Shown: positions 9,244-14,698 of the stretch, piece by piece | Layout of the letters: each line of letters begins with the position of its first letter | How positions within the stretch are numbered: position 1 is the first letter of the stretch | Assembly: GCA_016194585.1 (NCBI GenBank) | Contig: JACQBG010000003.1 | Coordinates: 1-56,398, forward strand | Direction of reading: 5' to 3' | Origin: Gemmatimonadota bacterium | Lineage (GTDB): Bacteria; Gemmatimonadota; Gemmatimonadetes; Gemmatimonadales; Gemmatimonadaceae | Length of the DNA stretch: 56,398 nt | The notes under the pieces: model-generated | Told to the model about the DNA's origin: nothing | What the model saw: only the letters and a program-made list of their open reading frames with translations | Databases searched by the model: none | Translations under genes and position numbers: made by a program

Positions 9244-10494
9244 TCAGCCGTGACAAGCTTTCCCGCGCACCCAACTTCGGGTGCAGCGATGGTCGCCGTA
9301 CCAGTAGGGGAGCTCGCGCAGGTCCCCGATGTCGAACAGGGCGAGGTCGGCGGAGAAGCCGGGGGAGAGCTGGCCGGTCTCCGCGGCGAGCCCGAGGGCG
9401 GCGGCGCCGTTGGCGGTGGCGGCCACGAACGCCTCGGCCACGCTCATGCGCAACTGGCTCACGGCGAGGGTGAGCATGAGCGGGAAGTTGACCGTCGGCG
9501 AGGTGCCCGGATTGAAGTCGGACGCCAATGCGACCGCGGCGCCGGCGGCGATCAGGTCGCGCGCGGGCGCCTGCCGGGGGCGCCCCAGGAAGAGCATCGT
9601 GCCGGGGAGCAGCGTGGCGACGGTGTCGGAGGCGGCGAGCGCCTTGATGCCCGTGTCACTGATGGCGGCGAGGTGGTCGGCGCTCGTGGCGCCGAGTTCG
9701 GCAGCGAGTTCGGCCGCGCCGGAGGGCTCGAGTTCGTCGGCGTGGAGCTTGAGGAGGAGTCCGTGCCGACGGGCGGCGCCGAGGATGCGGCGGGTCTCGT
9801 CGAGGGTGTAGACCCCTGGTTCGCAGAAGATGTCGGCGAAGACGGCCAGTCGCTGCGCGGCGACCTGGGGGATCATCTCGTGTTCGAGTAGGGCGACGTA
9901 CTCCTCGCGTGTGCGCGGGGCGGCGCGGAACTCGAGGGGGATCTCGTGGGCGCCGAGGAAGGTGGGGACGATGCGCATCGGCAGGGCCGTCTGGAGGCGC
10001 TGGATGACGCGGAGCGATTTGAGTTCGTCGTCGAGGGTTAGTCCATAACCACTTTTGATCTCTACGGTGGTTACTCCGTGCGCCGCCAAACGTTGAAGTC
10101 GAGGCAGCGCAAGGAGATAGAGGTCGTCCTCGGTACGGGCGCGCAGGTCCTTCACGGAGCTGTGGATCCCCCCGCCCCGCCGCGCGATCTCCATGTAGCC
10201 GACGCCGGCGGCGCGGAGTTCCTGTTCTTCGAAGCGCGCCTTGCCGAAGATGCCGTGGGTGTGGGAGTCGACGAGTCCCGGGGCGAGCACGCCGAGCGCA
10301 CAGTCGACGCGTTCGGCGGCCGGGAAGCGTCCCTCGAGCTCGGCCTGTCGACCCACGGCCACGATGCGGTCGCCTTCGACGGCGACGGCGCCGTTGGGGA
10401 TGACGCCGGCCTCGTTCATCTCGGGGCCGCGTCGCGCGCGGGCGGGGCCGGCGCAGGTGACGAGCTGGCTCGTGTTGACGAAGAGGAGAGTCAT
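9244..10494 (-). CDS. hutI: Imidazolonepropionase
   Basis: This is the third step of histidine degradation, hydrolysing 4-imidazolone-5-propanoate to N-formimino-L-glutamate. The 416-residue amidohydrolase carries the metal-binding DSHTHGIF motif (about residues 78-85), the substrate-binding GGGIHSSV segment, FLGAHEIP, the metal-binding HADELEPSGAAELAAELGATSADHL and ALASDFNPGTSP. Length matches the family. It is the last gene of the hut group, separated from the preceding gene by about 500 bp of repeats, so it may be transcribed separately. No formimidoylglutamate hydrolase (hutF/hutG) is seen in the window. Confidence 0.95.
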   Translation of the reverse strand: MTLLFVNTSQLVTCAGPARARRGPEMNEAGVIPNGAVAVEGDRIVAVGRQAELEGRFPAAERVDCALGVLAPGLVDSHTHGIFGKARFEEQELRAAGVGYMEIARRGGGIHSSVKDLRARTEDDLYLLALPRLQRLAAHGVTTVEIKSGYGLTLDDELKSLRVIQRLQTALPMRIVPTFLGAHEIPLEFRAAPRTREEYVALLEHEMIPQVAAQRLAVFADIFCEPGVYTLDETRRILGAARRHGLLLKLHADELEPSGAAELAAELGATSADHLAAISDTGIKALAASDTVATLLPGTMLFLGRPRQAPARDLIAAGAAVALASDFNPGTSPTVNFPLMLTLAVSQLRMSVAEAFVAATANGAAALGLAAETGQLSPGFSADLALFDIGDLRELPYWYGDHRCTRSWVRGKACHG

Positions 10495-10540
10495 TGCCGT
10501 CTGAAGTTACGGCGCGGAATGGGCAACTGCGACTGTGGAT

Positions 10541-10575
10541 CTACCACGGAGGACACGGAGGGCACGGAGGACTGC
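10541..10575. repeat. Period-9 ACGGAGGAC array, left arm A
   Basis: This 35-nt stretch starts CTACC and carries three ACGGAGGAC-like nonamers, ending ACTGC. Its reverse complement recurs at 10874-10908 with a single mismatch. A related array in the same orientation follows at about 10737-10768. Confidence 0.9.
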
Positions 10576-10608
10576 CACTGCGTTCTACCGCAGAGGACTG
10601 CAACTGCA

Positions 10609-10646
10609 TTCTACCGCAGAGGACGCGGAGGACGCAGAGGACTGCC
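10609..10646. repeat. Period-9 GCAGAGGAC array, left arm B
   Basis: This 38-nt stretch starts TTCTACC and carries GCAGAGGAC/GCGGAGGAC nonamers. It is a perfect inverted copy of 10947-10984. A shorter sibling starts at 10583. Confidence 0.93.
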
Positions 10647-10690
10647 ACTGCCACTGCCACTGCCACTGCCACTGCCACTGCCACTGCCAC
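10641..10690. repeat. Hexamer microsatellite (ACTGCC)8
   Basis: The hexamer ACTGCC is repeated in perfect tandem for 50 nt (8.3 units) immediately after arm B. Such a tract is prone to slippage and should differ in length between strains. Confidence 0.95.
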
Positions 10691-10704
10691 TTCATACTAC
10701 CACG

Positions 10705-10733
10705 ACTGCCACTGCCACTGCCACTGCCACTGC
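10705..10733. repeat. Second hexamer microsatellite (ACTGCC)n
   Basis: About 4.8 further ACTGCC units, separated from the first tract by a short CATACTACCACG spacer that also precedes the next ACGGAGG array. Confidence 0.9.
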
Positions 10734-10794
10734 ATACTACCACGGAGGTCACGGAGGGCACGGAGGACGGCCACGGCAGGCAACGACAACAAAT

Positions 10795-10846
10795 TGGGGG
10801 AACGACGGCGCGCGCGAGACTTCAGTGCGCAGCCGTCGTTCCCCCA
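10795..10846. repeat. Central hairpin, GGGGGAACGAC family
   Basis: A 15-bp perfect inverted repeat (10795-10809 and 10832-10846, TGGGGGAACGACGGC) with a 22-nt loop. Twelve bases of the arm (TGGGGGAACGAC) match the inner palindrome at 4971-5017, and the loops share a CGCGCGAG word if one element is reversed. Confidence 0.9.
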
Positions 10847-10873
10847 GTATTGCAGTTGTGCCGTGGCCGTTCA

Positions 10874-10908
10874 GCAGTCCTCCGTGCCCTTCGTGTCCTC
10901 CGTGGTAG
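10874..10908. repeat. Right arm A' (inverted copy of 10541-10575)
   Basis: Inverted 35-nt partner of arm A, differing at one position (C to T in the central nonamer). Confidence 0.9.
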
Positions 10909-10946
10909 ACAGCAGTGCGGTCCGGTGCTCCACGGTAGGCAGCGGT

Positions 10947-10984
10947 GGCAGTCCTCTGCGTCCTCCGCGTCCTCTGCGGTAGAA
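10947..10984. repeat. Right arm B' (inverted copy of 10609-10646)
   Basis: Perfect 38-nt inverted partner of arm B. The order A, B, hairpin, A', B' is interleaved and not nested, so the two stems cannot both form as simple hairpins in one strand. Confidence 0.93.
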
Positions 10985-11001
10985 CCTGCCGTCCCTCCGA
11001 C

Positions 11002-11715
11002 CTAGGACTTGGCTCGCGGATCGACCGCCTGCGCGATGCGCAGCGCCTCGGCGGCGCGCGCGTTCACGTCGACCGGACGCGCCGCGCCCTCGCTGAGCAG
11101 CTTCGTCACGAAGCGCTGCCCCTCGGACATGCGCTCGATCTCGATGGCGACGGCCTCCATGCCGCGCTCGAGATTCTCGAGGCGCGCGTTCATCTCGCGG
11201 CTCTCGGGGAGCGCGGCGGGGCGGCCCATGCGACGGAGCAGCCCGCGCGCGAACGCGAGCGACAGCGGCATCAGCACGGCGATCGTGAAGACGATGGAGA
11301 CACCCGTCGTCTGACCCGGCGTGAGTCCGCCGCGCTGAATAGGATCCGACGATGTGCCCGCGATCAGTTGCCCCGGCGCGGACGCGAGCTGTTGCCCCGT
11401 GATGTCGATGTCGCGCTCGAGTCGAGCGATGCGCTCGTCGAGCACGAGGAGGCGCTGTTCGAGGCCGGTGCGTGCGGGCCCAGGCGGCGTGAGGCTGATC
11501 TGCTTCGCGACGTCCTTGCGACGCCCGATGGCGCTGTTGAGCTGAGACGACAGTTCTTCGCGCCGGACGCGGAGCCCTACCACGTCCTGCATGGTCCACG
11601 TCGTGGGCGCTGGAGGGATCGTCGAGGCGGTGCCGAGCGCGCCCGGCGTCGCCGTGCTGCGGGCTCCGGGCGCGACGGGTGTCTGCGGAGTGGCCTGATA
11701 GCGTGACATATCCAT
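11002..11715 (-). CDS. Single-pass membrane coiled-coil protein, unknown
   Basis: I do not recognise this 237-residue protein. A Pro/Thr/Ala-rich N-terminus (1-40) is followed by a predicted coiled coil (about 48-112, with REELSSQLNSAIGRRKDVAKQ and RLLVLDERIARLERDID), one transmembrane segment (about 138-158, VSIVFTIAVLMPLSLAFARGL) and a second helical region (about 170-235, MNARLENLERGMEAVAIEIERM). The ATG at 11715 lies 5 nt after the radical SAM stop; a second ATG at 11709 is possible. It sits inside the hut group, but nothing in the sequence links it to histidine breakdown. Confidence 0.75.
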   Translation of the reverse strand: MDMSRYQATPQTPVAPGARSTATPGALGTASTIPPAPTTWTMQDVVGLRVRREELSSQLNSAIGRRKDVAKQISLTPPGPARTGLEQRLLVLDERIARLERDIDITGQQLASAPGQLIAGTSSDPIQRGGLTPGQTTGVSIVFTIAVLMPLSLAFARGLLRRMGRPAALPESREMNARLENLERGMEAVAIEIERMSEGQRFVTKLLSEGAARPVDVNARAAEALRIAQAVDPRAKS

Positions 11716-12764: not shown

Positions 12765-14509
12765 CAGCCCATCGGGATGTTGATGCCCTTCGCCTTCGCC
12801 GTGCGCTGGGCGATCTCGTAGCCGGCGTCGGCGTGGCGCGCGACGCCGATGCCGGGGTCGTTGGTGAGGACGCGCTCGAGGCGCACCCGCATATCTGACG
12901 AGCCGTCGGCGACGATCACCTGCCCAGCGTGCAGCGAGTTGCCGATGCCGACGCCACCGCCGTGATGGAAGCTCACCCACGTCGCGCCGCCGGCGACGTT
13001 GAGCAGCGCATTGAGGATCGCCCAGTCGGCGATGGCGTCGCTGCCGTCCTTCATCCCCTCGGTCTCGCGGAACGGCGAGGCGACGGAGCCGGTGTCGAGA
13101 TGGTCGCGGCCGATGGCGATGGGAGCGCTCACCTTGCCGCTCGCGACGAGGTCGTTGATGGCGACGCCGAACTTCGCGCGGTCGCCCTGCCCGAGCCAGC
13201 AGATGCGCGCCGGGAGTCCCTGGAAGTGGATCTGCTGCTGCGCCTTCTCGATCCAGGTGCGGAGGTGCGTGTCGTGCGGGAAGAGGTCGAGCACGAGGCG
13301 GTCGAGCCGCGCGATGTCGGCGGGATCGCCGCTGAGCGCGGCCCAGCGGAAGGGCCCCTTCCCCTCGCAGAAGAGCGGGCGGATGTACTCGGGGACGAAG
13401 CCGGGGATGTCGAACGCGTCGGCGAGGCCGGCGTCGAAGGCGACGGTGCGGATGTTGTTGCCGTAGTCGAAGGCGATGGCGCCGGCCTTCTGCATGGCGC
13501 GCATGGCGCGCACGTGGGCGACGGCGCTCGCCGTCGACTTCTTCACGTAGCCCTTCGGGTCGGCGGCGCGGAGCGCGGCGGCCTCGGCGAGCGACATCCC
13601 CGCGGGGACGTAGCCGTTGAGCATGTCGTGCGCGCTGGTCTGGTCGGTGACGACGTCGGGCGTGATGCCGCGACGAACCAACTCCGGCAGCACCTCGGCG
13701 GCGTTGCCGACGAGGCCGACGCTGAGCGGGAGCTTCCGCTCCGTCGCCTCGTGGATCCACGCGAGCGCCTCGTCGAGCGACGCGGTCATGCGATCGGTGT
13801 AGCCGGTGTCGAGCCGCTTCTGGATGCGGGCGGGGTCGACCTCGACGCCAAGGATGGCGGCGCCTTGCATGGTGGCGGCGAGGGGCTGCGCGCCCCCCAT
13901 GCCGCCGAGCCCGGCGGTGAGGATGAAGCGGCCGGCGAGCGAGCCGCCGAAGTGCGTGCGGGCGACGGCGCCGAACGTCTCGTACGTGCCCTGCACGATG
14001 CCCTGCGAGCCGATGTAGATCCACGACCCCGCGGTCATCTGGCCGTACATGATGAGGCCGGCCTTCTCGAGTTCGCGGAAGTGGTCCCAGGTGGCCCAGC
14101 GGCCGACGAGGTTCGAGTTGGCGATGAGGACGCGGGGCGCGTGGGCGTGCGTGCGGAATACGGCGACGGGCTTCCCGCTTTGCACGAGCAAGGTCTCGTC
14201 ACCTTCAAGTGCACGGAGCGCCTTCACGATGGCGTCGAAGCACTCCCAGTTGCGCGCGGCCTTGCCGGTGCCGCCGTAGACGACGAGGTCACCCGGGCGC
14301 TCGGCGACTTCGGGGTCGAGGTTGTTCATCAGCATGCGGAGGGCGGCTTCCTGGGGCCAGCCTTTGCAGCTGATCTCCGTGCCGCGCGGGGCGCGGATGG
14401 TGCGAGTGGGAGGAGCTGCTGCTTCTACCGCAGAGGACGCAGAGGACGCAGAGGACTGCACCTCTGGGGGGAGCGTGGATCCGGATGGGGCGCGGGGAGG
14501 GCGGGTCAT
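12764..14509 (-). CDS. hutU: Urocanate hydratase
   Basis: This is the second step of histidine degradation, converting urocanate to 4-imidazolone-5-propanoate with bound NAD. The family match starts at about residue 38 (IRAPRGTE) and includes [61 protein letters not shown] and [18 protein letters not shown]. The ATG at 14509 gives 581 residues. The N-terminal extension partly encoded by a dispersed repeat (14424-14457) reads [13 protein letters not shown]. No start codon exists between the repeat and IRAPRG, so translation must begin within or upstream of it; a GTG just before the repeat is the alternative. The longer frame back to 14758 runs through repeats and is rejected. Confidence 0.93.
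14424..14457. repeat. Period-9 array inside the hutU N-terminal coding region
   Basis: A 34-nt array of GCAGAGGAC units beginning TCTACC. It matches arm B of the 10.6-kb block and is inverted relative to 14617-14650 with one mismatch. It lies in frame within hutU and encodes serine/alanine residues. Confidence 0.92.
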
Positions 14510-14616
14510 GCGGGGTCCCTGGAGTTGCCGAAGTTCTTCTTGCGTATGTGAATGCGTCGTGCTCGTGAATCCGTCGTCTGCGCGACTTCGCTGTCGTCGT
14601 GAATTCGCGCCTTTGT

Positions 14617-14698
14617 AGTCCTCTGCGTCCTCCGCGTCCTCTGCGGTAGACCCTGCAGTCCTCCGTGTCCTCCGTGTCCTCCGTGGTAGAACCCGCAG
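14617..14698. repeat. Paired period-9 arrays upstream of hutU
   Basis: Two adjacent arrays in reverse orientation: GTCCTCTGC units (14617-14650, the inverted partner of 14424-14457) and GTCCTCCGT units (about 14656-14690). They fill most of the 193-bp gap between hutH and hutU. Confidence 0.9.

Follow-up and report, generated by a model that had tools for sequence, protein, structure and literature searches.

A family of inverted word arrays in a Gemmatimonadota hut region offers a clue to the function of a widespread nuclease-like protein

What are the inverted arrays of a short repeated word that occupy the gap upstream of hutI in a Gemmatimonadaceae genome? We addressed this question in a stretch of 56,398 nucleotides from that genome (the window), in which all of the arrays at this site lie within a 507-bp gap bounded by hutI, whose start on the minus strand is at 10494, and by the next gene, whose stop is at 11002. 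The genome is assigned to Gemmatimonadaceae because G103, a genome of the same family, has a GxxExxY gene whose coordinates coincide with those on plasmid 1 of Gemmatirosa kalamazoonensis. Our preferred answer, to which we assign a probability of about 70%, is that the window holds two gene-less, non-autonomous copies of a mobile family whose fuller copies elsewhere contain a gene for a GxxExxY protein. Mobility of the family is well supported by sequence comparisons, and we infer that the GxxExxY protein moves its members.

Anatomy of the arrays in the window

A full arm consists of TACC, exactly three words of about 9 nt (RCRGAGGAC) and usually a closing TGC, approximately 35 bp in all (Table 1). 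Two flavours of word, GCRGAGGAC and ACGGAGGRC, stand side by side, and partner arms in the window are identical in flavour. Allowing three or fewer mismatches, CTACCRCRGAGGACRCRGAGG occurs nine times in the window against 0.01 expected from shuffles. A preliminary description of this locus had recorded arms A (10541-10575), B (10609-10646), A' (10874-10908) and B' (10947-10984) around a 15-bp hairpin, and we recovered all four arms at these positions as well as the perfect stem. A' is 97% complementary to A over 36 nt, and B' is 98% complementary to B over 43 nt. That description read the order as A-B-hairpin-A'-B', an interleaved arrangement in which one RNA strand could form either a single long stem at a time or a pseudoknot-like fold. 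This idea is unsupported because a third full arm on the left, A2, had been overlooked; the A2 region (10728-10771) pairs with 10874-10917 on the A' side (86%). Outwards from the hairpin, the left side carries A2, a truncated unit, B, a second truncated unit and A, and the right side carries A', a truncated unit and B'. The structure is a nested palindrome with the order B-A2-hairpin-A'-B'. Folding of 10535-10990 as DNA or as RNA yielded a single nested stem in each case (z = -17.0 and -17.9, respectively; 0 of 100 shuffles were as good in either calculation), and with A2 in place a pseudoknot became unnecessary and was dropped.

Table 1 Coordinates of array features in the window and of further copies in the same genome
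Feature	Position	Strand	Details
Arm A	10540..10576	+	Three words: TACC ACGGAGGAC ACGGAGGGC ACGGAGGAC TGC; outermost on the left, without its own partner in the nested order
Truncated unit	10582..10601	+	One word, TTCTACCGCAGAGGACTGC
Arm B	10609..10646	+	Three words, GC flavour; partner B'
TGCCAC tandem hexamer linker	10642..10692	+	Recurs at about 10704-10733
Truncated unit	10695..10716	+	TACTACCACGACTGCC
Arm A2	10737..10771	+	Three words; partner A'
Central hairpin	10794..10847	none	15-bp perfect stem TGGGGGAACGACGGC, 10795-10809/10832-10846
Arm A'	10873..10910	−	
Truncated unit	10920..10946	−	Faces the truncated unit at 10695-10716
Arm B'	10947..10985	−	
Second element, lone plus-strand arm	14423..14460	+	Probably within the 5' part of hutU
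Second element, inner opposite arm	14614..14651	−	
Second element, outer opposite arm	14656..14692	−	AC flavour
Simple inverted pair, same genome	C3:42049/42156		
Simple inverted pair, same genome	C9:3746/3791		
Simple inverted pair, same genome	C27:23218/23270		
Simple inverted pair, same genome	C37:2194/2294		
Multi-arm nested arrays, same genome	C23; C44:15259; C45		

A second, simpler copy of the element, absent from the preliminary description, spans 14424-14690, between hutH and hutU. Placement of the arrays strictly between genes, as first described, applies to the copy in the hutI gap; in the second copy, one arm (14424-14459) probably overlaps the beginning of the hutU coding sequence. 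Translated on the minus strand, this arm reads as part of hutU (14 residues), and relatives have a short conserved hutU N-terminus at the corresponding place. The arms in the window enclose no GxxExxY gene, and neither copy contains a four-helix-bundle open reading frame.

Copies in the same genome and in same-genus relatives

The preliminary description had proposed a genome-wide search for further copies. This search returned 48 pattern matches, 24 on each strand, whereas the reversed control returned 2. The approximately 48 arms are dispersed over about 17 places, mostly as inverted pairs, and take the form of lone arms, simple inverted pairs and multi-arm nested arrays. Several copies, here and in a sister genome (G017), have a GGGAAC hairpin as their core: hairpins with a GGGGAAC core, resembling that of the window, are found at C3 and C23, and the sister genome has a GGGAACGACGG core.

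These copies bear on whether the arrays could have arisen by local repeat expansion, through slippage and palindrome correction with no transposition. Runs of the TGCCAC hexamer, tandem units of 44-46 bp at C23 and C45 and the truncated units that lie opposite one another on both sides of the hairpin are what such a process would leave, but it would leave unexplained why one word recurs at about 17 places in this genome and across many phyla, and why cassettes surround GxxExxY genes (see below). We consider it improbable as a full account, although slippage and palindrome correction may well explain how arms multiply within one copy. Nested arms with truncated units face to face hint that an arm may be copied from its opposite number, in a manner that can be likened to palindrome correction.

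Among 17 other genomes of the genus, we found real numbers of arms in G017 only; G005 had one match with three mismatches. G017 carries pairs at both window sites, in which the word is spelled ACAGAGG rather than the GCAGAGG or ACGGAGG of the window's genome. Judging from these shared positions, the two insertions most likely predate the split of the two species. The arm sequence has been homogenised separately in each. The hutH-hutU gap measures 328 bp in the window's genome and 287 bp in G017, and in ten same-genus relatives it is armless and only 41-106 bp long. Upstream of hutI, the gap is 200 bp in G017 and 25-79 bp in four relatives (G001, G009, G005 and G004).

Other relatives have filled this same gap differently. 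In G015 (L058) it is 175 bp long and holds a gene-less inverted array whose words are unrelated to those of the window, and in G011 (L065) its 117 bp hold gene-less repeated words of the GGACGYGGGA type. In G010 and G012 (L055, 600-1500, and L071), a gene for a four-helix-bundle protein (PF05635) is enclosed by long arrays of GGTGACG-type words in inverted orientation. The hutI-upstream gap is a recurrent landing site for elements that are alike in architecture and unlike in word. The arrays are thus not conserved at this place in all relatives, some gaps being empty and others differently occupied. Together with the further copies in the genome and the patchy distribution in the genus, this strengthens the early suggestion of a mobile or amplifying non-coding element. 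In G002 (L057), the gap holds what appears by eye to be a RelE/Phd-type toxin-antitoxin pair. For the C44 copies, no precise empty site was readable against G017, where the sequence is too diverged or has been replaced.

A very stable RNA fold and a position upstream of hutI would also fit an immobile element that acts in the hut operon as a structured RNA, attenuator or terminator. However, about 17 unrelated places in the genome carry the element, most relatives lack it in their orthologous hut gaps, and its Bacteroides copies flank a gene and have filled and empty sites (see below). An Rfam search with the window element gave nothing above the gathering score; the sole match, to mir-5881, scored 29 bits (cut-off, 87) and was taken as chance. 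A structured RNA and a terminator site were among the possibilities first offered for the locus. We regard this explanation as quite improbable: it leaves dispersal, empty sites and the GxxExxY association unexplained, although a terminator or structured-RNA role may be a side effect of the arrays.

Arms across bacteria and their association with GxxExxY genes

The exact three-word arm occurs in at least 120 stretches when one genome per species is scanned. The matches listed come from many phyla and groups, including Planctomycetota, Cyanobacteria, Acidobacteriota, Gemmatimonadota, Pseudomonadota, Myxococcales, Chloroflexota and Bacteroides. A match in Streptomyces (L109), within coding sequence, looks like chance. 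At 80 loci that we examined closely, most arms were solitary or formed inverted pairs about 40-200 bp apart. The Microcoleus pairs offered no clean empty site, the arms being common to both or masked by N. Runs of N also lie near arms in two public contigs (L162 and L200), where they may hide empty sites.

Two of these loci, in Bacteroides neonati (L142) and in an Anaerolineae metagenome-assembled genome (L155), contain a gene that is exactly enclosed by two arms; at L155 the arm sequence even encodes the N-terminus of the protein. Both genes are assigned to the GxxExxY family (PF13366/TIGR04256), and they are the only GxxExxY genes in the 894 kb of arm-selected loci (n = 120, among the matches listed). 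The family thus comprises gene-bearing forms and, at the other 118 of these 120 loci, forms that lack a GxxExxY gene. Family assignment places GxxExxY proteins in the PD-(D/E)XK nuclease fold, and the residues that define the motif of such nucleases (E, D, E-x-K and Q) are conserved. An AlphaFold model of one sequence had a pLDDT of 36, and our searches found no solved structure, no described function in the open-access literature and no GxxExxY gene in phages or viral contigs.

To ask the converse question, we started from the genes. For 55 of 79 GxxExxY genes drawn from Gemmatimonadota, Bacteroides and plasmid records, the flanking inverted repeat scored above all 100 shuffles; among random 350-bp control segments this was the case for 5 of 212 from other loci and 2 of 240 from the same loci. 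The flanking array was not detectable at the remaining 24 genes, which we count against the cassette reading. Tight flanking by arms was found in Bacteroides, Chloroflexota and Gemmatimonadota. The arms around GxxExxY genes are again arrays of words, and the word varies from copy to copy (CACAGAGGA, CACGAAG, CACGGAA, CGCGGATTA, ACAGATGAC, GACATAGGAACA and others). In Sphingomonas parapaucimobilis (L294), a GxxExxY cassette with CGCGAAG-type arms lies between fabD and fabG. We found no description of the association between GxxExxY genes and arrays, or of the repeat words, in the open-access literature; one may exist elsewhere, and the element family appears to be undescribed.

The genome that carries the window has three GxxExxY genes, none of which has arms of the window type. 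The gene on C15 is flanked by an inverted array of CACGGAT-type words and the gene on C1 by one of CGCRGAT-type words, and no flanking array was detected at the gene on C33. We therefore rejected these three genes as cognate partners of the window arms. No GxxExxY gene with RCRGAGGAC arms was found in this assembly (98% complete, 50 contigs, two of which, C23 and C44, end in arrays), which counts against our preferred answer. The copies in the window would accordingly have outlived a gene that has since been lost, or would depend on a gene whose own arms are different.

Filled and empty sites can be compared directly in Bacteroides. In 5 of 41 genomes, a cassette lies between radA and a gene for an FAD-dependent protein, whereas in 13 other genomes in which we examined this junction the two genes are just 2-85 bp apart. 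One empty junction (L327) reads TTCGGATAGA-TA-ATGATACAAG. The inserted cassettes start about 10 nt or less from the radA stop and end about 10 nt or less from the next start. An apparent lone, decayed arm occupies the site in L304.

Arm number in Bacteroides is related to the presence of the gene. Two genomes whose GxxExxY gene carries a second word have 142 and 156 arms of that word, and 30 or more such arms were found in 6 of 16 PF13366-bearing genomes but in 0 of 25 PF13366-free genomes (Fisher p = 0.0018; Mann-Whitney p = 0.0017, with related genomes treated as independent). Two observations count against a spread driven by GxxExxY. Some PF13366-free genomes have 10-29 second-word arms, as a relic population would be expected to have, and three Bacteroides genomes (G286, G272 and G287) have CACAGAG-type arms and no PF13366 gene.

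The same data can be read differently: the arms might serve to control or protect GxxExxY genes, for example in a toxin-antitoxin-like or RNA-binding system, and owe their spread to passive horizontal transfer and recombination. In favour of this reading, the arms lie close against the gene and at L155 even encode its N-terminus, and a transcript would fold into a stem that encloses the reading frame, much like the intervening sequences (IVSs) of 23S rRNA (PMC4990558). This reading sits poorly with the many arm-selected loci that are gene-less and with dispersed arms that number up to 156 in one genome, and we consider it unlikely, if still the most credible of the alternatives.

A proposed route of spread and comparison with known systems

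The basic copy of the element is a pair of inverted arms of about 35 bp around a short core, which in this genome is usually a hairpin. Sequence comparison shows copies that are dispersed, present or absent at orthologous sites, homogenised within a genome and in part nested with many arms; in our reading, they turn up at new sites in short gaps between genes and can become nested palindromes through added arms. We propose that the GxxExxY protein recognises its own arms, probably when the DNA is folded or forms a cruciform, and that by cutting them it initiates the copying of elements to further short sites between genes. It would also act in trans on pairs that lack the gene. The copies in the window could be relics of a lost cognate gene or could be served by one of the GxxExxY proteins that remain.

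The closest working analogy is that of REPINs and RAYT, the REP-associated tyrosine (Y1) transposase. REPINs are inverted doublets that form hairpins and are extragenic and dispersed, with clusters and decayed singlets (PMC3116915). The arrays described here share these features, including many gene-less copies and a nuclease-type gene of low copy number with the shared sequence on either side, and they might on these grounds be taken for REPINs moved by a RAYT. Their arms, however, are arrays of three words of about 9 nt rather than short palindromic REPs, and the gene enclosed elsewhere encodes a PD-(D/E)XK GxxExxY protein rather than a Y1 HUH enzyme. The window's genome gave no match to PF01797, for which a control search was positive in 5 of 14 genomes; we rejected a RAYT as the mobiliser on this ground and consider this explanation very improbable.

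In architecture, the closest known elements are the 23S rRNA IVSs, in which inverted repeats surround one small open reading frame and which have been termed selfish, their mobility being a hypothesis (PMC4990558). Like our elements, those IVSs that carry an S23/four-helix-bundle reading frame (PF05635) are short and bounded by inverted repeats, with a single small gene. The copies in the window differ in lying outside rRNA and in being gene-less, and most cassettes that we examined carry GxxExxY. Five of the six four-helix-bundle genes outside rRNA that we examined were accompanied by inverted word arrays (L055, L071, L164, L388 and L389), and one was not (L387). We entertain, tentatively and at somewhat less than even odds, the broader idea of a pan-bacterial mobile class in which GxxExxY proteins and, independently, four-helix-bundle proteins, each with a cognate inverted array of roughly 9-nt words, spread themselves together with large numbers of gene-less copies. 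If this is true, it would provide a first function for GxxExxY, and 23S rRNA IVSs would be a branch of the same way of life; the array cassettes would give the old question of IVS origin a concrete frame.

GxxExxY is annotated across bacteria, and its link to the arrays makes it a testable candidate for a very small element-spreading nuclease. The link would also account for a repeat that is present in many phyla. The element family offers a clue to what this widespread, so far uncharacterised nuclease-like protein does.

Two further kinds of repeat deserve comparison. At the four-helix-bundle genes of Nostoc plasmids (L388 and L389), the flanking inverted arrays consist of GGGAACA heptamers, which we take to resemble the cyanobacterial short tandemly repeated repetitive (STRR) heptamers and treat as a lead only; the word and the word length of STRRs differ from those of the window arms. 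Miniature inverted-repeat elements (MITEs) are likewise small, non-autonomous and located in intergenic gaps. No transposase family with matching ends was identified for our elements, and no target-site duplication was recognised by eye, either at the copies in the window's genome or at the Bacteroides radA/FAD junctions. In four Nostocales loci (L115, L161, L171 and L181), the three-word arm lies within a longer, MITE-looking element with the ends AGGACTTACGCA and TGCGTAA.
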